From: Laccaria trichodermophora
Taxonomy: Eukaryota > Basidiomycota > Agaricomycetes > Agaricales > Hydnangiaceae
NCBI GenBank assembly: GCA_018417955.1
Contig: JACTVC010000001.1
Coordinates: 1,612,001 to 1,676,000 of the forward strand
Direction: 5' to 3'
Length of the DNA: 64,000 bases
Of this stretch, positions 17,759 to 60,760 are shown one piece after another. Position 1 is the stretch's first letter, and the number at the start of each line of letters is the position of its first letter. The position numbers and the translations under genes were made by a program. A model generated the notes under the pieces. The model saw only the letters and a list, made by a program, of their open reading frames with translations, ran no database searches and was not told the DNA's origin.

Positions 17759-20700
17759 TTAGCCAGTTAATTGAGGTGTGATTGAATAATTATTACTCTC
17801 TTGTGTTGATTTCCAGTTCTAGTATTGTATATTGTGAGTAGATTAGACATTTTAGTAGCACTCAAGCTTAACCACATACCTGCTGAGGATTCATGAAAAA
17901 GTATAAACAAATTTTGCTGTCTCAAGTGGAGATCAATTGAAAAAAACTTGCCCACTATCATATAATTGTCAGTAAGCTATCAAACAAAGAAAACAACAAT
18001 GCAACTTACTTGCTGAAATAAGAAAAGGCTCATTAAAGTTCTATAGTTTTAATGGGATAACAAACAATCTGACAGCCATAATTGATCACAGGCAGGTAAA
18101 ATAGATAAAAAGAATATAACATACAATCTATGATATAGCATTGAGCATATCTATAATGCAAGAATGATGATGTACCTACAATCTGATTGGATAGTTCATT
18201 TAGAAACACTTGTTAATGAATAAATACTAGCTATACCTCCTAAAAAATAGCTTTAGATTTGATCAGATTGTCTATTATGTACATTACCTGGCAATCAAAG
18301 CCCATAGTTGAATAATTGAGTATACAGCAATAGAAAACCCACTTTCTGAAGCAAAAGGTAGTGATTACTTTTTACATGAATGGGAGTCCACTTACTGGCT
18401 TCAATAACATCAATAAATAGACACTAAATTTTAAAAAGAATCCTCACAATCTAAGCAAAATTCAATTATCAGATATAGAATTGATAAAAATTGGACTTAC
18501 ACCCTAGAAAAATAGTCATCACTGAGTACTTTTGAATTTCCCAGAGTAAATTTCTCACATTCTCACAGAAAAGATGAGCTATTTATTATAGAGGAATAAA
18601 TGAAGGGATACTCACATGCTGTAAATAGATTAATTATTTATCAATAAAAATATTATTTAACTTGCCCACTAAATTGGCTGTAGTTAGAAGATGTACAAAC
18701 ATGAAGAGGGGTTGCCACTTACACTCTGTAGAGAAATACAAGTTTACGGCTTCTCTGAGATGGAGAGTTGATATAAGATATGAAAGCTTACAGGCTACAA
18801 GTTAATAGAAATGGTTTGAGCAGATAGAAGCATGTAATAAAGTCCACCCACAGTCTGAAAACCTGGAATCAGAATAATTATCTTGAAAGCAAACATTACA
18901 TACAATCTATTGCAAGAAAAAGAAATTAATATTGAAAAGTTCTACTTGCAGGTTCAATAACTTACAGGCTAAAATATGTGCTCAATTAGTGAGCCATTGC
19001 ATCACAAAAGAGAGTAACTTACTCCCTAGTTCCAAGAAGAGATAATAAGAGTAATGACAGTGCAACAATGAACAATTACTGACAATCTGCAAAATTATCA
19101 GACAGACTAATTGTTGAAATTTAAGACTGTAACATACCCACTAAAAAAACAATTTGTAAAGATCATCTTGAACAATTTTTTCTTCTTACATTCTAACACA
19201 TAGAATGAATTAGATGTAAGAGAAGGTGCATAGAAAGTGTTCCTACATTCTATCAGAAAACATTCATTTAGTAGTGTTCAAAGCTATTCAATATGATACT
19301 TGCCCACTGTGGAATATAAAGGTCAGATGCTTCAGTTATATTTTGAAGGTATCTTCTCACATTCTAAACAGAGCAATCTGTCAAATTTATACTAACAACT
19401 CACAACATATCATACCTGCTATAATCCCAAAAACTTTAGTTACATATTGATAGAAAGGAAAGAACAAGTTACCATCTTGAAAGTATAGTCAGTGATGGCT
19501 CAAATGGCTATCATATTTCATACCTCCTAGGAAAGAGTCAAAGAAAATTACAACTGAATAACATTTTCATTTCCAAGATTTTTTCTTACTTTCTGTAAGA
19601 TCTTTCATCAGCCATTCTGAATAAAATTTGTACAAGCCATACCTTTGTAATTTCTAAAACTGGCCATATATATGCTTTTTTGCCAGCTCCAGCAAACTCT
19701 TCTTCCTGGTAGAATATTAAATTATTGAAAAAATATTGAGATATCAGTGGCTAACCTGAAAACAAGATAACACAGCTTCCAAGTCTTGAACAACACTTTT
19801 TCCAGTGTCTCTGTTACAGTTTAAAATGGTGTTAAACCAGCTTTCTATATTTTTAGACATCAGTAAATTCACAAGATTAATCAGAGAACTAAAAATTGTC
19901 TCAGATAAGTCCTGTCCCTGTTCTCCAAATGCCTGGCAAAGGTGATGGGGCCAATGACAGCAAGCATATCTTTGTCCAGCTGTGTCAAAGAAATTTTGTT
20001 CAACATCATTTGTAAGACACCGCAAACAGTCAATAGCAAGGAGAGCATGCTGGATGGAAGGATTGATATAATAACTTTCTGACCGAGCTTGACTGGTCAG
20101 AAAATCTCGAAGTGAGGTGTGAAAAAGTAGGATTGGCTGGTCATCGTCTCCTGGAATAAGAAGGAGAGATTGGACAGCAAGCAATTCACAAATGATTTCC
20201 CTGGATTAGAACCCAAGTAACTTGCTTATTGCTGTAATGGATTGGTTTTCCACAAGGATCATGGTAGTTCCAAGAATGTGATGGAAGCTGGGTGTAAGGG
20301 AAACCTCACTCAGGACCTGCTTGTACAAGGGATCAAGACCCACGACATCTGACTGTAAAACCAACTTCAAGTCCCTATCTGGAAACTCACTAGCCTCGAT
20401 CCAGGAAATCAAAGTTGTAGCAAACATAAATGAGCCACCAGCTTTGGAGAGCAGGAGGTTTAGATCTGATGGGGATGGCCAAGGCTGAGGAAGGCCCCTC
20501 ATGATAGGGAAATTCTGTTGATATACGTTGTTGAACTTTTTCTGAAAATATGCTTGAATATCAGGACGAGCATCAAAGTCTACTAGCTCTAGACGGTAGA
20601 TGCTCGTTGAAGCCAGAGGATGGTCAAATTTTCGCCGGATATGTTCCTCCACACGGCTAGTAAGCAGGATACGTATCAAAGGGAATCTCTTTCCAGCCGT

Positions 20701-21407
20701 CTCGATGATAGCAGTAATGAATTCTCCCATTTGGGATTTGTCATCACATTCGTCAAGGGCATCAATGACAATAATGTTTGCTTTTGTAGTGGACAAGAAG
20801 GCAGAAAGCCCACTTGATGCCGCAAGGAGCGGCTCAATGACGAGCTTTTGAAACTGATGAGTGAGTGAAGTTGAAAGGATAAATGGTTCTTCGTCAAGGA
20901 CCTTCTCGATCACAGTCTTGGAAGTTGGAATGGAGACAGAGATTTGGTAGGCGAGGGTCGCAATGAGGCGATCAATGTGACTGCGTGCGCCAGCACCCCG
21001 GAGAAAGAAAAAGCTGGCGGCGAGCCTGCTGTTTTCGGCGCATAACTCAGCGATAGTCTGCGATAACGCAGACTTCCCGTAACCGGCTGGACCGTTGAGC
21101 CAGCATACAGTGGGAGCATCCCGACTCTTGGTGTCAACCCACTTCTTGATAGTGTCGATCAGCGTGACTCGGGTTCCAGGATCGCATCGGGCGACTTGAC
21201 CTCCGCGAGTGTAGCCAGCATCTTCGACGGGCCTTAGTTGCTCATACAGTCCTAAAGAGCGTCAGAAACAACGATGCTACAATGTTCGCGATCGAGCTAA
21301 CCATTGAGAGCGGCGGAGTTACTGTAGAAATGTGCATCCCCACCAACATCGAAGAAAGCTGGATCCCCTGGGAAAGTCATGCCAGTGGCGTTAGAAAAGA
21401 TTGGCAT
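17759..21407 (-). CDS. NACHT-domain NLR-like protein with a 3' array of single-codon exons and one in-frame stop
   Basis: Exon 1 (21407-21302) encodes a start MPIFSNATGMTFPGDPAFFD; exon 2 (21251-19756) carries the NACHT NTPase. Visible motifs are Walker A GPAGYGKSALSQT, Walker B IIVIDALDEC, sensor ILLTSR and, C-terminally, LFHTSLRDFL. Exon 3 (19705-19643) encodes 21 aa. Then come 30 three-nucleotide exons and a terminal exon (17818-17759) ending in TAA, all in one frame. An in-frame TAA at 20206-20208 interrupts exon 2 at a position that family members fill (LLGF, stop, SREII), with no intron of normal length to remove it. The gene is thus either recently inactivated or makes a shortened NACHT protein. 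Fungal NACHT proteins act in non-self recognition and programmed cell death; that role is inferred from the family. CpG is normal up to about 20,900 and nearly absent beyond. Confidence 0.8.
17819..19642 (-). other. Tandem array of short introns separated by 3-nt exons
   Basis: On the minus strand the unit (C/T/A)AG-NNN-GTRAGT-like recurs about every 54 nt. Leftmost coordinates and triplets of the exons, in transcript order: 19590 AAA, 19524 GAG, 19473 ATG, 19416 CAG, 19361 AAT, 19304 TGG, 19247 AAT, 19190 AAT, 19138 TGG, 19084 ATT, 19023 GGA, 18966 CCT, 18904 ATT, 18852 ACT, 18792 CCT, 18723 AGT, 18666 TGG, 18616 CAT, 18559 AAT, 18501 GGT, 18448 ATT, 18396 CCA, 18343 AAA, a zero-length junction at 18288/18287, 18237 GAG, 18180 ATT, 18125 ATT, 18066 ATT, 18010 CAA, 17952 TGG, 17880 CAG. 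The 32 introns are 47-69 nt long, and several contain CTAAC/CTAAT/CTGAC-type branch sites. Intron bodies are not copies of one another. None of the triplets is a stop, and phase stays 0 throughout. Confidence 0.85.
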
Positions 21408-29779: not shown

Positions 29780-32149
29780 ATGTTTGATCGCTCAGAATCC
29801 GTCGTCGTTACTGGTGGCTCTATAACTCAAGTCCATGGAAATTCATATGGCAAGCTTCCAATCTAAAAGGGTGTAGTTTGCTCACTCCGCATAGAAACTT
29901 CCGTCACAAATATCAATAATACGTTTTCGTCGACTGATGATGGTAAGAGCCATTGATTTTCCATCTCATGATAATAGTTCTCAATGACAGGTTTCAGGCC
30001 TCCATGAAAAGGGCCTCAAGACTCTTCACACCAAGATTGCCGCTGGCGCAATGCACGACTCCAAGGAACGTTACGACGCCCCGAAATGCCACCAGGACAC
30101 ACGGAAAGCCGTTATCAAGGACATATCAAGCTGGGTCGTAGATGATTCAAAGGATTTTCCGATCCTTTGGCTTAGCGCTCCAGCTGGCTCTGGGAAGTCA
30201 GCCATCTTGCAGAAGATAGCGGAACTTTTTCAAGGCTCTGGGGGACTCGCCGCTAGCTTCTTTTTTTCACGCACGGCGGGTGAAAGGCAAACGGAGGCTC
30301 GCTTGATCGCCACTATTGCCGCCCAGTTGGCGGTCACTATCCCAACAACCAGGCTTTTCATTAGCCAAGCCGTGCTTAATGACTTATCCATATTTGACAA
30401 GACGTTGCATGTGCAGATGACACGCCTCGTCATCCAACCTTTAATCTGTGCTTCTCTTCGGGCAGGAAGAAGCTCCCCGTGGCCATCATTGCTCGTAATC
30501 GACGGTCTTGACGAATGCAGTGGTGGAAAAGTCCAGGCTGCTATTTTACGCATGCTCAACCAAGCCCTTTTGCAACTCAAACACTCCTTACCCTCACTAT
30601 GCTTTCTCATCGCCAGCCGACCAGAACCCGCCATTTGTGAGGTTTTTGAACATGAGCTCAATGAAACAACCTATCATCTTGTTCTTGACGACTCATATGA
30701 TCCCGATCGGGACATAGCAACGTTTCTTCGAAGTAGTTTTTCAGATGTTCGTCGTCGCGGGCATACCCGCTTTCCCTCTATGTCATCCCTCCCACTTCCA
30801 TGGCCCTCAGAAGACGTGATTTCTTTTCTCGTCGAAAAGTCATCCGGCCAATTTATCTTTGCAGCGACGGTGATCAGATTCGTCGATCAGGATCGTAGGT
30901 TTCCTCCCGATCAACTCAAGATTGTTTTGGATTTGTGTAAATCACGCGATGCATCTCGACACAAGACCAACCCCTTCGCTCTTCTTGATCAATTGTATGC
31001 TGTTGTTCTGCTATCCTGCGATGAAATCAACAGAGTCCTCTTTCTGCTTGGGATGATTTTCTTTTTGGCTGATACCGCTGTGACTCCTGTGTTCCTGGAA
31101 GCCCTTGTTGATATTAACTTCAACGATATAACATTGTTATTCTGGGATCTGCATTCCATTATTCATGTCCCAGTATCCAGCACAGATACTGTTCGTTTCT
31201 ATCATGCTTCTTTTAGAGATTACCTCTTGGATCATCACAGATCTGAAGATTTCCATATTGATGAATATTCAGTGCAGTCTTTTCTTTTCAAATCATGCAT
31301 GCGGCAGCTTTGCAATGCCCCTCACTCTGCTTCTGCCACCATGAGCCCTGCCCAGGAATATAGCCTGAAGTCATGGTCCAATCATTATATCAGGGGTGAC
31401 ACATTAAAGATGGGGTCACTTGACCCTTTCTTGGAAAACCTCAAACCATTGCTTTGCCAGAGTTCAAACTCAAAAAGCAAGGCTGTTATTCCAGATCTTG
31501 CATACTGGGGGAGAGTTTATGGTCCTGCACGAAGCAAAATCCACCAACAAGTAAGTATCTACTTTAAATAGAGATATCAAGTTTTTAACTCCTTCATCTT
31601 TCCAGTGTACTTCTCAGAGGTCAGCCTGTACCCCCCTGTGCTGCAGATTCAATCCTATCCTTGACCAACATCTTCTTTTATGGCTTGAGGAGTATCAATG
31701 GACAAAATTGGAGATTGCCTTAACATGGCTAATGCTTACACTTTACTGTAACAATTCAGTTGGACCACCTTGGCGTCATTTGTTTTCAGGCTCTTACAAC
31801 AACCTAGGAATTAGCTGGTTGTGGCATTTTGACTGGGAAGCCACTTCTGATCAGGAATTTATTCACCTCTTGCTCACTTTTTTCCAACATCCAAAACACT
31901 GTGGTTGCCTCTCTATTGGAAAATTTTCAACCACTGGTGATTTTGCTCATCTCTGTGCACAGATTGTCCTGGATAGTTGCTTGGGTTTTACTGACCCACG
32001 CAGCTTGAGGTACTTACTTCTTCATTCTTTATTCTTTTGTTGAACATACATGTGACATGCCTATGCAAGTTATCTTTATTACCTTCACCAGGTGCTGCCA
32101 ATGCTTCGGAAGAATCGACATACTTGCATGTACCCAGATGACATTGTAA
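29780..32149 (+). CDS. NACHT-domain NLR-like protein
   Basis: Five exons: 29780-29849, 29895-29942, 29998-31550, 31606-32009 and 32092-32149, giving about 710 aa. The first intron appears to use a GC donor (TATG|GCAAGC). The N-terminal leader (VVVTGGSITQVHGNSYG) and GLHEKGLKTLHTKIAAGAMH are hallmarks of agaricomycete NACHT proteins. The NTPase shows Walker A LSAPAGSGKSAILQK, Walker B SLLVIDGLDEC and FLIASRPE; a winged-helix-like region follows with FYHASFRDYLLD. The C-terminal exons are Trp/Cys-rich with no recognised repeats. The exact end is uncertain, because another frame of the last exon stays open to a GTAAGT donor at 32161. Such proteins are inferred to sense non-self and trigger cell death. 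CpG is normal to about 31,000 and then scarce. Confidence 0.82.
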
Positions 32150-40829: not shown

Positions 40830-43800
40830 ATGTCTGATTCCAATCGCCCCCGCGAAAACCGTCTGAAGGGCAAGTTTAGGGGACTGCTTGACCGACTCAT
40901 GGGCGCAGACCGCCTACGTATTGAACGCCCACGTCCTAGCGGTTCGAGGTTAGAGTTCATGACTCCCACGTTGTCAGATAGCATACCGACGAGATTTAGG
41001 TCGACATTCACAAGGGCGCTAGGGGGAGGAACGTCTCTGGTGCGTGTTCACAATGCATGAATCAAGTCTTTCGCTCATATCTTTTGTCTTTCGGAATCCC
41101 AGAATGTGTTCCCGGGAGCTCACAACTTCGTTATAAGGGATACAACATTCTATGTGGCTCAAAATGTGTGTATTGTGACGATGGCATTCATGGTTTGAGA
41201 TATTGATTAGACTTTTTGTCAAGATTGAGGTTCATGAACATGCCAGCAGGGGTGAAGATGATTCATCCCTTGTTCCCCAACGACCAAATTCAAGTGCCTT
41301 ATTTACTGGTTATGAGGATGTGCTCAAGAGGCTGATGGATCACTTTGCACCTCAAGGTCAAGATAGATACAGAAAGTCATTTTTGTTGTATGGCATGGGA
41401 GGTGTTGGCAAGACACAGATTTGCCTAAGGTTTGCTGAGAAGATGGCTGGAAGGTTAGTTTATTCACACTCTATGTCACTCAACTTAAAACAAGAACATT
41501 TAGATTCTCCCATGTTTTCTGGATTGATGCATCTTCTGAAGAAACTATAGCTCTTGGTTTAAAAAGTCTTTGCTATCATCCTGAGGCTAAAGCTACTGGT
41601 GTCTCTGTATCTGCTGAGTCTGCCCTTGTGTGGATGGCATCTCTTCAGAGTGAATGGCTGCTTATGTTTGACAGTGCTGATGGTGCACCTGAAGTTGTAG
41701 AGAAATTTATTCCATCTGGTTCTCTGGGTAATATTCTGGTTACTAGCAGAAACAGATCTCTTGGGCGTGTCACATCTTATGAAAACTCTCTGGAAATTGA
41801 TCAAATGGCTGAGGAGGATGCCATATCACTCCTGCTGAAAGCCAGTCATCTAACTGACCAATCAGAGAATGTCCATGATATAGCTCAGCAGATTGTAAAT
41901 GAGCTCTGTTGCCTACCTCTAGCTGTTGATCAAGCAGGATCTTCCATTGAAGCTGGTCTCTGCAGCATTCATAATTATCTCGAGCATCTCTGTCAACATA
42001 GAAAAAAGTTGATGAACCATCCTTCATTTAGAGGGGCATCCCAGTATGACCGTACAGCATATGAGACATGGGATTTGTCATTCAACAAAATTGAGTCAAT
42101 GGCAAACAAGAGATCTGATGAGCATGGTATTGTAGCTGCTCAGGCTGCTATTCTTATTCTTGAAACTGCTGCATTTCTACATCATGAGAATCTAATTGAG
42201 GCTGCTTTTAGGAAGGCTGCCATGGAATACTCTAGAGAAGATCACAAAAGAATGGAACCAGAGGTTGAAACCTGTATTGATCAATTGCTTCAGCTAGAAA
42301 AAGATCAGTCTTGGAATCAATTCTTCTTTCATGAAGGAATCAGGCTTCTTATGTCATTTTCTTTGATCAAGCAGATCTCACCCTCTTCAGGAATTTATGC
42401 TATTCATCCTTTGGTGCATAAATGGAGTAGAGATAGAATGTCCATATCTCAAAAGAAGTGCATGATACAAGTGTCAAAATTGATCCTTGTGAACTGTATT
42501 ACAGATGAGATGACAACTAAGAACATTGCATTCAACAGGCTTCTTGTACCACACATCAAAGCCAATTACCAGTCACAAGATGAAAATGGTTTTGAAAGAG
42601 TGTTTGATGATGATGAATATTTCAAGTTCAGTTATGTTTTGTGTGAAAATGGAAGGTGGAAAGATGCAGAGTATCTTCAATATCAACTTGTAGTAATGAC
42701 AAAAAAGAAGCAGGGGTCAAAGCATCCATCAACACTGACCAGCATGGCAAATCTTGCAGTCATATATGCAGAACAGGGAAAATATGATAAGGCTGAGGAG
42801 CTGGAGCTGAGGGTTTTGGATCTGCATAAAAAGGCACTTGGGTCAGAACATCCATCAACACTGATTAGTATGGGAAATCTTGCAGAAACATATTCAGACC
42901 AAGGAAAACATAAAGAGGCTGAGGAGCTGCAGCTGAAGAAACTGGATTTGTGTGAAAAGTTGCTTGGGCCAGAACATCCATCAACAGTGATTAGCATGGG
43001 AAATCTTGCAAGAGTATATTCAGAGCAAGGAAAATATGCAGAGGCTGAGAAGCTGGAATTGAAAGTTCTGGATCTCCATGGAAAGATATTAGGGCCAGAA
43101 CATCCACATACCTTAACCAGCATGGGTAATCTTGCAGTCACATATACAAAACAGGGAAAATATGATGTGGCTGAGGAGTTGCAGGTGAAGAAACTGGATT
43201 TATGTAAAAAGTTGCTTGGGCCAGAACATCCATCAACACTGACCAGCATGGCAAATCTTGCAGTCATATATGTAGAACAGGGAAAATATGATAAGGCTGA
43301 GGAGCTGGAGCTGAGGGCTTTGGATCTGCATAAAAAGGCACTTGGGTCAGAACATCCATCAACACTGATTAGTATGGGAAATCTTGCAGGAACATATTCA
43401 GATCAAGGAAAACATAAAGAGGCTGAGGAGCTGCAGCTGAAGAGACTGGATTTGTGTGAAAAGTTGCTTGGGCCAGAACATCCATTGACAGTGATTAGCA
43501 TGGGAAATCTTGCAAGAATATATTCAGAGCAAGGAAAATATGAAGAGGCTGAGAAGCTGGAATTGAAGGTTCTGAATCTGCATAGAAAGGCACTTGGGTC
43601 AGAACATCCATCAACACTGGTTAGTATGGCGAATCTTGCAGTCATATATGCAGAACAGGGAAAATATGATGAGGCTGTGGAGCTGGAGCTGAGGGTTTTG
43701 GATCTGCATAAAAAGGCACTTGGGCCAGAACATCCATCAACACTGACCAGCATGGCAAATCTTGCAGTCATATATGCAGAACAGGGAGAATATGATAAGG

Positions 43801-44552
43801 CTGAGGAGCTGGAGCTGAGGGTTTTGGATCTGCATAAAAAGGCACTTGGGTCAGAACATCCATCAACACTGATTAGTATGGGAAATCTTGCAGAAATATA
43901 TTTAGACCAAGGAAAACATAAAGAGGCTGAGGAGCTGCAGCTGAAGAAACTGGATTTGTGTAAAAGGTTGCTTGGGCCAGAACATCCATCGACAGTGATT
44001 AGCATGGGAAATATTGCAAGAGTATATTCAGAGCAAGGAAAATGTGCAGAGGCTGAGAAGCTGGAACTGAAAGTTCTGGATCTCCATGGAAAGATATTAG
44101 GGCCAGAACATCCACATACCTTAACCAGCATAGGTAATCTTGCAGTCACATATACAAAACAGGGAAAATATGATGAGGCTGAGGAGTTGCAGCTGAAGAA
44201 ACTGGATTTATGTAAAAAGTTGCTTGGGCCAGAACATCCATCAACACTGACCAGCATGGCAAATCTTGCAGTCATATATGCAGAACAAGGAAAATATGAT
44301 AAGGCTGAGAAGCTGGAGCTGAGGGCTTTGGATCTGCATAAAAAGGCACTTGGGTCAGAACATCCATCAACACTGATTAGTATGGGAAATCTTGCAGAAA
44401 CATATTCAGACCAAGGAAAACATAAAGAGGCTGAGGAGCTGCAGCTGAAGAAACTGTATTTGTGTGAAAAGTTGCTTGGCCCAGAACATCCACATACTTT
44501 GACTAGCATGGCTAATCTTCAAGCTATATATGAAAAAGCAGAAAAAAAATAA
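40830..44552 (+). CDS. NB-ARC-TPR protein (NLR-like STAND NTPase)
   Basis: Four exons, 40830-41039, 41103-41165, 41224-41453 and 41504-44552, give about 1183 aa. The first exon encodes a basic N-terminus. Exon 2 encodes NVFPGAHNFVIRDTTFYVAQ, a leader motif shared by many agaricomycete NLR-like proteins. The NB-ARC domain shows P-loop LLYGMGGVGKTQICLRF, kinase-2-like WLLMFDSADGAPE, GNILVTSRN and ELCCLPLAVDQAG. From about 42716 the chain becomes fourteen 42-residue tetratricopeptide repeats plus a truncated last one, each with a core like HPSTLTSMANLAVIYAEQGK. The repeats form higher-order groups. By family the NB-ARC acts as a nucleotide switch and the TPRs sense a ligand or partner; the ligand is unknown. 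CpG is normal in exons 1-2 and almost absent afterwards, yet the frame is intact, which argues for selection. Confidence 0.92.
42716..44530 (+). repeat. 126-bp tandem TPR-coding repeat array
   Basis: About fourteen units of 126 bp. By sequence type the order is A B C D, A B C, A, A B C D, A B, where A has VIYAEQGKYDKAEELELR, B has YSDQGKHKEAEELQLK, C has YSEQGKYAEAEKLELK and D has YTKQGKYDVAEELQ. Near-identity between repeated blocks points to recent block duplication or conversion. Confidence 0.85.
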
Positions 44553-54528: not shown

Positions 54529-54535
54529 AAAGTTC
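54529..54535. repeat. Target-site duplication, left copy
   Basis: AAAGTTC immediately precedes the terminal CACTTCAGTC of the palindrome. Confidence 0.85.
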
Positions 54536-54621
54536 CACTTCAGTCACCCATTTTAGGGTACCTGTGAGGTATATGAATTCTTTGATTTAGGGGACCTCCA
54601 TGGTACCCATTCCAAGGGTGG

Positions 54622-54775
54622 TATAAGAGCACATACCAATACCATGGTACCATGGTATGGAAAACCCATACCATACCAATACCATGTTACCATACCATAC
54701 CATGTCACCTCATACCATACCATGCCATACCATACCATCATACCATACCATACCATACCATCATACCAGGGTGTC
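54622..54775. repeat. TACCATACCA microsatellite-like array (left arm; mirror at about 60514-60667)
   Basis: Short ATACC/ATACCATG units, themselves partly palindromic (GGTACCATGGTATGG). Confidence 0.85.
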
Positions 54776-55479
54776 TGGGGTCCTTTTTCAAAATATATAA
54801 ATTCTTTCTGCAGGCTGCAATACTGGTCCATTGGGTGCCATTTTTTGTGGAAAGCTTCTTGATGTTTTTCCCAAGATTTTAAGATACAAATGGAGGCTAT
54901 ATAGTCAAATCCATCCTTTGAAAATCAGTTCAAATGAGCTTAATCCCAGCTTTTTCCATGCATCAAAAGCCATTTATTGATACATATCTTTCCCAGTCCT
55001 TTCAATTACAATTAGAACAATATTCATCACAAATAAATCAATGCTGCATCAGTATTTGAGAAGCAAAGAAAAGAAAACATTTTGTGTATTGGCTATAGTC
55101 CTGGACCATGCATTGCAAAAGCATGGACTTGAGCTAAATTATTATCCAACAGCCTAGGCTGAAATATGCACTTCAACTAATCAACTACATTAAGTACCCT
55201 TCACAGATGATTCATTTCAAAAGCCTGAAATTTGGATTCAAAAAGTGCCATGCTGTTGCTGTCAAAGAAATATGTGTATATATTTACTATTTGAAAACTA
55301 CATATGATGGAATCAAAGTATTGTTGTTCTGAGAATTTGACCAAAGTTGTCATTATCAAAATATTTGGTCCAATCCAAAGTCTTGTCAATTGGAGAGCCA
55401 GGGGTACAGATTAAGGAAGCTCCTGTTGGCCATGGCCTCCCAAAACCATGATACTATGTTCAGCCTTATTCATATCACA

Positions 55480-56040
55480 TGTCATACCACAACCATTCAT
55501 ACCATACCACAACTATTCATACCAAACTATGGTATTGCCCCCTCACCATACCATACTATGGTATTGCCATCTCACACCATACCATACTATGGTATTGCCA
55601 TCTCATACCATACCATGGTATTGCCCCCTCACCATACCATACTATGGTATTGCCATCTCATACCATACCATGGTATTGCCCCCTCACCATACCATACTAT
55701 GGTATTGCCATCTCATACCATACCATGGTATTGCACCCTCACCATACCACACCATGGTATTGCCATCTCATACCATACCATGGTATTGCACCCTCACCAT
55801 ACCACACCATGGTATTGCCATCTCATACCATACCATGGTATTGCACCCTCACCATACCACACCATGGTATTGCCATCTCATACCATACCATGGTATTGCA
55901 CCCCCATACCATACCATACCATGGTATTGCACCCTCACCATACCATACCATGGTATTGCACCCCCATACCATACCATACTATACCATGGTATTGCACCCT
56001 TATACCATACCATGGTACTCCACTCCCATACCATACCATG
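55480..56040. repeat. Tandem array of ACCATACCATGGTATTGC units (left arm; mirror at about 59359-59809)
   Basis: Units of about 29 and 57 bp alternate CCCCTCACC and CATCTCATACC variants around a common core. The array is about 110 bp shorter in the right arm. Confidence 0.85.
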
Positions 56041-56325
56041 TTGTTTGATGTTTAAGGTGCTGTTCTCAGGATCCAGTGTGAATTTCTAAATATGGAAGGT
56101 GTGGCTATGCTAAATGAAAAAGAAATTAATGGGATAGATGCTTAAAATATCACAGGAACCATAATCTATGCAGAGGAAGGCAGAAAACCCCCATTTCGAA
56201 GTTTGTTTACATATATTTACCAATAGCTTTAACCAAAGTAAGGCTACAAAAATTGTAGTGTCCGCTTTTTTCATTAGAAAAGAGAAGTATGATTAGAAAA
56301 CTTTGTAGTGTGCGCTTTGATGTGC

Positions 56326-56850
56326 GCACTATTTCCTAATTGGGCCATTTCCTAATTGGGAAAAGCGTTACACTTTTTTCTGCCACACCTGATGTCAGGC
56401 ACAGTGCGCATTTAGGTCGGGAACTGTTTCCCACGCTTTTTGGGCCAGAAGAGTTAGTGGCTAGCTTAGTGTTGTCATTGTTAATGACGATGTGCGCACT
56501 ATTTCCTAATTGGGCCATTTCCTAATCAGGAAAAGCGTTACACTTTTTTCTGCCACACCTGATGTCAGGCACAGTGCGCATTTAGGTCGGGAAATATTTC
56601 CCACGCTCTTTGGGCCAGAAGAGTTAGTGGCTAGCTTGGTGTTGTCATTGTTAATGACGATGTGCGCACTATTTCCTAATTGGGCCATTTCCTAATCAGG
56701 AAAAGCGTTACACTTTTTTCTGCCACACCTAATGTCAGGCACAGTGCGCATTTAGGTTGGGAACTGTTTCCCACGCTCTTTGGGCCAGAAGAGTTAGTAG
56801 GCTAGCTTAGTTTTGTCACTGTTCATGACGATGTTCGCATATTTCCCAAT
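56326..56850. repeat. Three 170-bp tandem units (left arm; mirror at about 58549-59073)
   Basis: The block starting GGGCCATTTCCTAATTGGG at 56341 recurs at 56511 and 56681. The units include GCGTTACACTTTTTTCTGCC and GCCAGAAGAGTTAGT. Confidence 0.9.
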
Positions 56851-56869
56851 TAGGAAATTCATTACATAA

Positions 56870-57420
56870 TATCAGTTTGTAGTCTCCGCTTTTTTAGACT
56901 ACAAAAGTTTGTAGTGTGCGCTTTTTTCATTACAAAAGTTTGTAGTCTTCTGCTTGTGTTCACTACAGAATTACTAGTGTGCGCTTTTTTAGACTACAAA
57001 AGTTTGTAGTGTGCGCTTTTTTCATTACAAAGGTTTGTAGTCTTTTGCTTGTGTTCACTACAAAATTACTAGTGTGCGCTTTTTTCATTACAAAAGTTTG
57101 TAGTCTTCTGCTTGGGTTCACTACAAAAGTTTGTAGTGTGCGCTTTTTTCATTACAAAGGTTTGTAGTCTTTTGCTTGTGTTCACTACAAAATTACTAGA
57201 GTGCGCTTTTTTCATTACAAAAGTTTGTAGTCTTCTGTTTGGGTTCACTACAAAATTACTACTGTGCGCTTTTTTCATTACAAAGTTTGTAGTGTGCGCT
57301 TTTTGGACTACAAAAGTTTGTAGTGTTCGCTTTTTTCATTACAAAGGCTTGTAGTGTCCGCTTTTTTCATTATAAAAGTTTGTAGTGTCTGCTTTTTCAT
57401 TACAAAAGTTTGTGGTCTGC
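56870..57420. repeat. Tandem array of TTACAAAAGTTTGTAGTGTG units (left arm; mirror at about 57852-58529)
   Basis: Units of 29-32 bp with TTTGTAGTGTGCGCTTTTTT cores, grouped into about 127-bp higher-order units. The right arm has one more higher-order unit. Confidence 0.85.
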
Positions 57421-60400
57421 TTATCTTATATATTATATTGTAGTCTCCTATTATCTATGTAGGTATGACCTGATGTTTCAGGCAAACTGACTGCAGCCAA
57501 ACAGCTGGCAAATCATTCACACTTTGTACTCTCTAAGGAATTACATTCAAGACTAACTATTTGAAAGGGCAGGTAGTTCAGTCATGTTCTCATCATATTC
57601 AACATTCTTTCCATATATCTGGGGACTCAACTATGTCTGAACATAGCCAACCTTGACATGTCCTCTCTTTCTCCTTCATCATTGGGTAGCTGCCACTACC
57701 TGCCCTTTCCAATAGTTAGTCTTGAATGTAATTCCTTAGAGAGTACAAAGTGTGAATGATTTGCCAGCTGTTTGGCTGCAGTCAGTTTGCCTGAAACATC
57801 AGGTCATACCTACATAGATAATAGGAGACTACAATATAATATATAAGATAAGCAGACCACAAACTTTTGTAATGAAAAAGCAGACACTACAAACTTTTAT
57901 AATGAAAAAAGCGGACACTACAAGCCTTTGTAATGAAAAAAGCGAACACTACAAACTTTTGTAGTCCAAAAAGCGCACACTACAAACTTTGTAATGAAAA
58001 AAGCGCACAGTAGTAATTTTGTAGTGAACCCAAACAGAAGACTACAAACTTTTGTAATGAAAAAAGCGCACTCTAGTAATTTTGTAGTGAACACAAGCAA
58101 AAGACTACAAACCTTTGTAATGAAAAAAGCGCACACTACAAACTTTTGTAGTGAACCCAAGCAGAAGACTACAAACTTTTGTAATGAAAAAAGCGCACAC
58201 TAGTAATTTTGTAGTGAACACAAGCAAAAGACTACAAACCTTTGTAATGAAAAAAGCGCACACTACAAACTTTTGTAGTGAACCCAAGCAGAAGACTACA
58301 AACTTTTGTAATGAAAAAAGCGCACACTAGTAATTTTGTAGTGAACACAAGCAAAAGACTACAAACCTTTGTAATGAAAAAAGCGCACACTACAAACTTT
58401 TGTAGTCTAAAAAAGCGCACACTAGTAATTCTGTAGTGAACACAAGCAGAAGACTACAAACTTTTGTAATGAAAAAAGCGCACACTACAAACTTTTGTAG
58501 TCTAAAAAAGCGGAGACTACAAACTGATATTATGTAATGAATTTCCTAATTGGGAAATATGCGAACATCGTCATGAACAGTGACAAAACTAAGCTAGCCT
58601 ACTAACTCTTCTGGCCCAAAGAGCGTGGGAAACAGTTCCCAACCTAAATGCGCACTGTGCCTGACATTAGGTGTGGCAGAAAAAAGTGTAACGCTTTTCC
58701 TGATTAGGAAATGGCCCAATTAGGAAATAGTGCGCACATCGTCATTAACAATGACAACACCAAGCTAGCCACTAACTCTTCTGGCCCAAAGAGCGTGGGA
58801 AATATTTCCCGACCTAAATGCGCACTGTGCCTGACATCAGGTGTGGCAGAAAAAAGTGTAACGCTTTTCCTGATTAGGAAATGGCCCAATTAGGAAATAG
58901 TGCGCACATCGTCATTAACAATGACAACACTAAGCTAGCCACTAACTCTTCTGGCCCAAAAAGCGTGGGAAACAGTTCCCGACCTAAATGCGCACTGTGC
59001 CTGACATCAGGTGTGGCAGAAAAAAGTGTAACGCTTTTCCCAATTAGGAAATGGCCCAATTAGGAAATAGTGCGCACATCAAAGCGCACACTACAAAGTT
59101 TTCTAATCATACTTCTCTTTTCTAATGAAAAAAGCGGACACTACAATTTTTGTAGCCTTACTTTGGTTAAAGCTATTGGTAAATATATGTAAACAAACTT
59201 CGAAATGGGGGTTTTCTGCCTTCCTCTGCATAGATTATGGTTCCTGTGATATTTTAAGCATCTATCCCATTAATTTCTTTTTCATTTAGCATAGCCACAC
59301 CTTCCATATTTAGAAATTCACACTGGATCCTGAGAACAGCACCTTAAACATCAAACAACATGGTATGGTATGGGAGTGGAGTACCATGGTATGGTATAAG
59401 GGTGCAATACCATGGTATAGTATGGTATGGTATGGGGGTGCAATACCATGGTATGGTATGGTGAGGGTGCAATACCATGGTATGGTATGGTATGGGGGTG
59501 CAATACCATGGTATGGTATGAGATGGCAATACCATGGTGTGGTATGGTGAGGGTGCAATACCATGGTATGGTATGAGATGGCAATACCATGGTGTGGTAT
59601 GGTGAGGGTGCAATACCATGGTATGGTATGAGATGGCAATACCATAGTATGGTATGGTGAGGGGGCAATACCATGGTATGGTATGAGATGGCAATACCAT
59701 AGTATGGTATGGTGTGAGATGGCAATACCATAGTATGGTATGGTGAGGGGGCAATACCATAGTTTGGTATGAATAGTTGTGGTATGGTATGAATGGTTGT
59801 GGTATGACATGTGATATGAATAAGGCTGAACATAGTATCATGGTTTTGGGAGGCCATGGCCAACAGGAGCTTCCTTAATCTGTACCCCTGGCTCTCCAAT
59901 TGACAAGACTTTGGATTGGACCAAATATTTTGATAATGACAACTTTGGTCAAATTCTCAGAACAACAATACTTTGATTCCATCATATGTAGTTTTCAAAT
60001 AGTAAATATATACACATATTTCTTTGACAGCAACAGCATGGCACTTTTTGAATCCAAATTTCAGGCTTTTGAAATGAATCATCTGTGAAGGGTACTTAAT
60101 GTAGTTGATTAGTTGAAGTGCATATTTCAGCCTAGGCTGTTGGATAATAATTTAGCTCAAGTCCATGCTTTTGCAATGCATGGTCCAGGACTATAGCCAA
60201 TACACAAAATGTTTTCTTTTCTTTGCTTCTCAAATACTGATGCAGCATTGATTTATTTGTGATGAATATTGTTCTAATTGTAATTGAAAGGACTGGGAAA
60301 GATATGTATCAATAAATGGCTTTTGATGCATGGAAAAAGCTGGGATTAAGCTCATTTGAACTGATTTTCAAAGGATGGATTTGACTATATAGCCTCCATT

Positions 60401-60753
60401 TGTATCTTAAAATCTTGGGAAAAACATCAAGAAGCTTTCCACAAAAAATGGCACCCAATGGACCAGTATTGCAGCCTGCAGAAAGAATTTATATATTTTG
60501 AAAAAGGACCCCAGACACCCTGGTATGATGGTATGGTATGGTATGGTATGATGGTATGGTATGGCATGGTATGGTATGAGGTGACATGGTATGGTATGGT
60601 AACATGGTATTGGTATGGTATGGGTTTTCCATACCATGGTACCATGGTATTGGTATGTGCTCTTATACCACCCTTGGAATGGGTACCATGGAGGTCCCCT
60701 AAATCAAAGAATTCATATACCTCACAGGTACCCTAAAATGGGTGACTGAAGTG

Positions 60754-60760
60754 AAAGTTC
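60754..60760. repeat. Target-site duplication, right copy
   Basis: AAAGTTC directly follows the terminal GACTGAAGTG of the palindrome. Confidence 0.85.

Follow-up and report, generated by a model that had tools for sequence, protein, structure and literature searches.

Runs of single-codon exons form a putative hypervariable C-terminal tail in NACHT-type NLR genes of the basidiomycete Laccaria trichodermophora

The closest described counterpart of the arrays considered here comes from an ascomycete, Tuber melanosporum, whose NACHT-ANK genes were reported to contain tens of codon-sized (3-bp) microexons (Iotti et al., 2012, Fungal Biol 116:261, as cited in PMC3689799, PMC4986451 and PMC10197012); according to the same citing papers, alternative splicing of these NACHT microexons was proposed to diversify the sensor. 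The initial annotation of the present DNA knew of no described array of this kind, and in view of the Tuber report that claim is not supported. (According to the abstract of PMC11121469, filamentous fungi had no described functional microexons, yet Iotti is cited in that paper.) A second design is that of the HiC repeats (WD, TPR and ANK), summarized by Dyrka et al. (2014; PMC4986451) as C-terminal, subject to concerted evolution, variable at a few hypervariable codons, polymorphic in length and enriched in NLRs. Further afield, the Schistosoma micro-exon genes (PMC4015677) consist largely of very small, alternatively spliced exons and the aphid bicycle genes (PMC9168663) are also built largely of very small exons; as those papers present them, they encode unrelated proteins, and their exons are small without forming long runs of exactly 3 nt. 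Exon definition is thought to be infeasible for very small exons, although intron definition is possible where they stand beside short introns (as outlined in PMC8378409).

The locus lies on the minus strand of the window (the whole 64,000-nt stretch of L. trichodermophora DNA that was analyzed) and, by triplet coordinates and chain search, consists of 30 three-nt exons and 31 introns (17819..19642). The 30 triplets, placed by their coordinates, spell KEMQNWNNWIGPITPSWHNGIPKEIIIQWQ and include zero stops; each has AG before it and GT (27 triplets) or GC (three) after it. The introns average 55.9 nt (30 within 47-69 nt, one of 103 nt), and they start with GT in 28 of 31 cases and with GC in the other three, all 31 ending in AG. 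Upstream of the array is an exon of 63 nt (EEEFAGAGKKAYIWPVLEITK; 19643..19705, minus strand), the equivalent place being taken by a 69-nt exon in the paralog L042 and in several other parses; downstream is a terminal exon of 60 nt (NWKSTQESNNYSITPQLTG plus a stop; 17759..17818, minus strand) in the same phase as the array and the 63-nt exon. The initial annotation had described an AG-NNN-GT(A/G)AG array of 30 single-codon exons spaced about 54 nt apart, sharing one phase with the exons on either side, and the coordinates agree with it on both counts. Its introns are indeed short, but there are 31 of them and not 32, the higher figure requiring an AG|GTAATG inside the 103-nt intron to be taken as a boundary.

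A search of the array region for chains of AG-NNN-5' splice site found 30 consensus sites, 23 of them in the longest chain, whereas 2000 dinucleotide shuffles of the region gave a mean of 0.96 sites (maximum 6) and no chain longer than 2 (0/2000). This was the shuffled-sequence control that the initial annotation had named, and it rules out a chance origin of the array. When the spacing in AG-N(k)-5' splice site was varied from k=0 to 15, k=3 gave 22 hits and each other k 0-4, and the same chain search of the window's plus strand found no chain >1. A tandem-repeat search found no tandem repeat within the window array, which rules out a minisatellite and agrees with the earlier statement that the introns of this array are mutually unrelated. 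Two further observations of the initial annotation are correct but carry less weight than it gave them: the triplets are all sense codons, which taken alone has P=0.11 for this base composition, and branch-like CTRAY sites are present in 12 of the 31 introns, which is not clearly in excess of chance (shuffled mean 6.1, maximum 14).

In recursive splicing, ratchet points are sites at which the 3' and 5' splice sites nearly abut, leaving an exon of 0 nt. The exons here are of 3 nt and, on the sequence evidence given below, would be coding; the zero-length AG|GT of recursive splice sites is not found, with the sole exception of the 103-nt intron (18240..18342, minus strand). Within the trailing conserved block described below, this intron separates the K codon from the E codon, and its internal AG|GTAATG would amount to a possible zero-length exon. 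The corresponding (longer) intron of L042, L048 and L038 also has AG|GTAAT, which is absent in L039; a ratchet point or a lost micro-exon is possible at this position.

The gene upstream of the array reads as an NLR. A putative first exon with its ATG at 21407 (21302..21407) was read by eye and would be followed by a GT..AG intron (21301-21252); then comes a NACHT exon, all on the minus strand. The first part of this exon (20206..21251; Pfam NPHP3_N 1.2e-26, NACHT 1.6e-10) ends in an in-frame TAA (20208-20206), and its second part (19756..20205) has an intact frame of 150 aa (P0001) that served as the query by which the family was recovered. A winged-helix match of P0001 is weak (HTH_TANC1, E 0.0011, below the Pfam cut-off). 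A protein search with it returned a single metagenomic relative (P0002, 81% identity across 69% of the query), and no relatives were found in viral contigs. The window array forms the 3' end, predicted to be coding, of a NACHT-type NLR gene. In the four paralogs aligned at the position of the TAA the frame is open. The window copy is a single divergent member of the family with unrelated introns, and its stop means that it may be inactive.

Elsewhere in the window, an NLR-like gene (41439-44552, plus strand) has a weak NB-ARC match below the cut-off and about 14 internally conserved TPR units, each of 126 bp; here the HiC design that is usual in fungi stands beside the micro-exon design. A third NACHT gene (29988-31571, plus strand; 5.7e-9) is a weak relative of the array family (C1:1643149) and has no array on the plus strand. 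An apparent large inverted repeat of about 3 kb per side (54530-57577 and 57695-60759, spanning 54530-60759) has perfectly complementary blocks of 585, 1267 and 1571 nt, slightly out of register, and many short tandem repeats.

Searched against this one genome (59.0 Mb in 77 contigs), the 150-aa query has 35 matches: itself, 18 close paralogs at E <1e-30 and 16 weaker matches. Arrays are present in 17 of the 18 close paralogs, the other (L045, on C13) being a NACHT part without an array. As to the weaker matches, L050 (on C9) has an array, ten were examined in loci of about 3.2 kb and contain no chain of six, and one of the remaining five is the plus-strand gene of the window, with no chain on that strand. 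A second search, from L050, adds L051 (also on C9; 83% identical), again with an array; the family comprises about 20 genes. The NACHT domain of L036 is recognized by Pfam at 5.2e-9. Nine of the 18 close paralogs lie on a single 1.57-Mb contig (C76), as if in a receptor-rich region. The matched NACHT stretch contains a stop in five of the 18 close paralogs and none in the other 13, and a longer query adds one in L043; some arrays therefore sit in genes that may be dead, and conclusions on function rest on the intact members.

The 19 paralog loci contain 689 micro-exons in runs, from 23 to at least 71 per locus, in a count that admits only three-nt exons with at least two three-nt neighbors among the nearest four and comes from a parse that prefers 3 nt (the 71 of L046 is a minimum, its parse having reached its limit). 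None of the 689 is a stop, 25 are followed by a GC splice site and just one has C as its third base. The near-absence of C at the third base means that splicing may shape codon choice, and suggests that contact with the splicing machinery, such as the U5 loop contact, limits which codons a micro-exon can carry. Regular-expression chains in these loci include false TAA/TGA triplets, from AG-TAA-GT inside AGTAAGT, and later parses were used instead. When exon lengths of 0-30 were allowed, a strict splice-site parse made 396 of 431 internal exons 3 nt long. A looser parse of these 20 loci, extending into DNA outside the arrays, gave 643 exons of 3 nt and 5-41 of each other length. The splice-site matrices had been trained on these loci with sites chosen at 3-nt spacing, and the later parses favor 3-nt exons. 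A few introns are of only 41-46 nt, and one in L051 would be 37 nt; these may not be used.

Two blocks of codons at the ends of the arrays are conserved. By codon alignment, codons 1-11 of the window array (19023..19592, minus strand) form a leading block, KEMQNWNNWIG, where paralogs have TENENFKKWIK, and codons 23-30 (17880..18345, minus strand) form a trailing block, KEIIIQWQ, for which the paralogs have K-E-x-I-L-K-W-R (as KEDILKWR or KETILKWR, the K-E-T of the C76 copies having been read directly). The consensus is T/K-E-x-x-N-[FW]-x-x-W-I-x for the lead and K-E-x-I-[LI]-x-W-[RQ] for the trail, with a core in between; in the window, parses and coordinates put codons 12-22 (PITPSWHNGIP; 18396..18968, minus strand) in the place of the paralogs' hypervariable core. 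The likeness extends to the splice sites: the W codon of the trail is followed by a GC-AG intron in the window, L036, L039, L042, L048 and L038, and TGG directly precedes GCAAG in 14 of the 17 array-bearing close paralogs. The fit of the window's lead and trail to the paralogs exceeds that of all 100,000 permutations of the window's own 30 codons, in a test that used 13 lead and four trail blocks from the 17 array paralogs, chosen after inspection. The lead introns of the window and five paralogs, meanwhile, are 49-51% alike at matched positions, the same as at mismatched ones (this comparison used an earlier parse that misplaces an edge of one or two window introns).

A second contrast between codon and intron comes from L050 and L051. 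Across 26 three-nt exons, paired by hand and leaving out a stretch with 14- and 16-nt exons, 76 of 78 bases are identical, whereas the 25 introns are 87.4% alike (86.1% in their interior; Fisher P 0.004 for exons against introns) and the NACHT exon is 82.6% alike at the DNA level. These two arrays also hold exons of 14, 16 and 18 nt, which by hand can be read in frame (14+16=30), a reading that in L051 requires the 37-nt intron disallowed by the parse. Within the cores of 17 loci there are no stops in 356 codons, where base composition predicts 27.4, and none in 175 when each codon is counted once per locus (14.4 expected, P 2.9e-7); triplets at fixed shifts from the codon have 0 to 120 stops, a control that is uninformative because the intron bases there are constant. 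The proposal that this is a gene tail with an intron at every codon is thus supported by comparison: paralogs share codons in spite of unlike introns, L050 and L051 do so at 76 of 78 bases, and all 689 micro-exons are stop-free. That the array triplets are coding is supported by these comparisons of sequence.

Between lead and trail, most of the close paralogs follow another pattern, in which an intron, mostly of 60-67 nt, recurs almost without change while the codon differs from unit to unit. The paralog arrays, in other words, do contain a tandem repeat, and its most variable part is the codon. A 401-bp core probe has 95 matches, all inside 16 arrays of this family (a lower bound). Unit pairs with flanking introns at least 90% alike are present in 15 of 17 loci (none in L038 or L049); the 1066 such pairs, sampled at up to 400 per locus, have a mean intron identity of 95.0%. 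In a set of 217 units from 15 loci, with introns limited to 65-67 nt, the entropy at the three exon bases is 1.79, 1.90 and 1.42 bits, as against mostly <0.9 in the intron (a few columns reach 1.5), the invariant AG before and G after the codon being built into the parse. Core length ranges from about 7 to 60 or more codons between paralogs, and none of 435 core codons specifies cysteine.

The codon is shared by 44% of within-locus pairs in which both introns are identical (n=54), by 20% of those in which they are 97.5-99.9% alike (n=331) and by 9% at 90-95% (n=1042), as compared to 6% of random pairs; units within a locus are not independent and P values are accordingly indicative. Core codons thus appear to lose their identity far faster than the adjoining introns. 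The two patterns are opposite, the codons being the conserved part in L050 and L051 and the introns in most close paralogs, but both keep the 3-nt frame. A repeated codon word is clear in L033 (five codons, 2/500 permutations) and marginal in L032 and L035, while the five other loci tested have none; with clear repetition in L033 only, recent block duplication is not shown for most loci. In HiC repeat NLRs tandem units of the sensor region are at least 85% alike; here such likeness is seen at the DNA level in introns, neither as protein repeats nor in the window array. In the HiC genes, as summarized there, the conserved part is protein and particular codons are selected; here the conserved part is the intron, with one residue per unit, and by entropy and unit pairs the codons are far more variable than their flanking introns.

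The explanation that we favor, with a probability of about 0.68, is that these arrays encode a translated, hypervariable C-terminal tail of a NACHT NLR, built of tandem intron+codon units, processed by intron-definition splicing and possibly subject to combinatorial skipping. Each residue of the tail (23 to at least 71 residues) would have a 3-nt exon to itself, flanked by introns that are mostly 45-70 nt long; intron definition would remove these short introns singly, and each removal would add one codon to the growing upstream exon. Since all exons are 3 nt, skipping any codons would keep the frame and tails may vary between transcripts, and since little but distance separates the acceptors in homogenized arrays, mixed tails are plausible. 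Tandem duplication and exchange of intron+codon units could alter the length of the core, while selection for diversity would keep its codons different. The tail would then be the part with which the receptor varies and recognizes, in the place that WD, ANK or TPR repeats take in other fungal NLRs; Pfam matches nothing in the tail (P0001, the L036 frame of 597 aa, the L. bicolor protein P0003 and the joined L042 tail have no ANK match at E 0.1 and no WD or TPR repeat), so a recognition role is inferred by analogy only, from position and variability.

The same arrays could have grown non-adaptively, with units that are invisible to the frame multiplying by slippage and the tail being tolerated junk, screened for stops and splicing. 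The wide variation in core length is in keeping with this, as are the near-absence of C at the third base, where splicing may shape codon choice, and the stops in the NACHT exons of some family members; we nevertheless hold it to be unlikely, since neutral codons should match the introns in likeness and the sharing of codons is only 44% or 20% where introns are identical or nearly so (against 6% at random), and since the lead and trail blocks are conserved.

Introner-like elements occur in fungi, and a contiguous coding tail could have been cut at every codon by copies of one intron, in which case the codons would be old and the introns new. That a single core probe matches introns of 16 loci is what such an invasion would produce. 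The probe, however, in a search that gives lower bounds, matches these arrays only and no dispersed genes, insertion leaves the strict 3-nt period unexplained, core length and codons differ between paralogs (L033 even having its repeated five-codon word), and the arrays of the window and of L050 and L051 have unlike introns with the same 3-nt grammar, all of which makes this origin a good deal less credible than a translated tail of tandem units and, in our estimate, quite improbable.

Nor do we put much trust in an expression brake, by which the many introns would make productive splicing slow or rare and hold the NLR at a low level through early-stop transcripts, with the peptide secondary: 29 of the 31 window introns would bring a stop or a frameshift if retained, but the 3-nt length, the conservation of codons in some arrays and their hypervariability in others would all go unexplained. 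Least probable of all, and very doubtful, is that the array is one long intron removed stepwise by recursive (ratchet) splicing with the triplets as spacers outside the mRNA, since, for all that AG and GT lie 3 nt apart, near to the arrangement of ratchet points, and the 103-nt window intron has a true AG|GT, spacers need not always be 3 nt or stop-free (0/689) and need not keep codon identity while introns diverge, and since the 14-, 16- and 18-nt exons of L050 and L051 can (by hand) be read in frame.

Arrays of this kind do not seem to be confined to this species. With the joined C-terminal exons of L042 as protein query there are 47 relatives, among which those named by organism are LACBIDRAFT_310101 (83% identical) and 299247 (65%) of Laccaria bicolor and K443DRAFT_86490 (64%) of Laccaria amethystina; LACBIDRAFT_310101 (P0003), in turn, matches this genome at best with 84% over 250 aa, and with 88% over one 116-aa piece, which makes L. 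bicolor S238N-H82 an unlikely source of the DNA and a related but distinct agaric a probable one. That the nearest named proteins are from Laccaria supports the initial annotation's placing among agaricomycetes and, together with the Mating_C domain (PF12737) of agaric HD1 proteins, a basidiomycete family present in the genome, excludes Tuber as the source; a 5.8S rRNA search gave nothing. Two L. bicolor gene models contain the FQ|T(L/S)QGS junction. Their ends, E-N-N-F-VGQYFA and E-H-VSQATITIYGC, fit micro-exons 2, 3, 5 and 6 in the one and 2 and 3 in the other, with the next intron then read through. At 4 of 11 loci of the genome studied here micro-exon 6 and its intron give FVGQYFA-stop, and at the other loci variants of it; micro-exon 3 and its intron give N- or D-VSQ at 7 of 11. 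The array therefore seems to be present in other Laccaria, where gene prediction has apparently picked up some of its one-codon exons; the skipping of micro-exons 1 and 4, or the early stop, in the L. bicolor models may be prediction artefacts.

Like the Tuber nank genes, as the citing papers describe them, these genes belong to an expanded fungal NACHT family with tens of codon-sized exons (the window has 30, the 19 other loci from 23 to at least 71); unlike those ascomycete genes with their ankyrin repeats, they are basidiomycete and no ankyrin match was found in the four sequences scanned. No Tuber-named match appeared in the protein searches with P0001 or the joined L042 exons, where few matches bear names. 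A literature search, with most subscription papers and preprints outside its scope, found, among the papers listed, no report of 3-nt exon arrays in basidiomycete NLRs, and none of the homogenized-intron/hypervariable-codon design. New with respect to Tuber, judged from DNA, are the other phylum, the lack of an ankyrin match and, probably, this homogenized-intron/hypervariable-codon design.

We would tentatively go one step further, at somewhat less than even odds, and regard the uniform 60-66 nt introns with their varying codons as codon-by-codon diversification: a DNA-encoded peptide library that grows, shrinks and reshuffles by single residues and is maybe resampled at the RNA level by skipping. 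If so, we know of no smaller module of receptor diversity than this one intron with its one codon. If codons do turn over without change in the introns, a process beyond ordinary duplication and mutation would be acting on exactly three bases; targeted change, or intron-limited conversion under strong codon selection, are candidates.

Gene finders may truncate genes of this sort, as two deposited Laccaria models apparently stop within the array, and annotated genomes may therefore lack receptor tails. The arrays bear on how the spliceosome handles exons too small for exon definition, on the diversification of innate receptors in fungi, and on how introns could stay constant in DNA of which only the codon between them changes.
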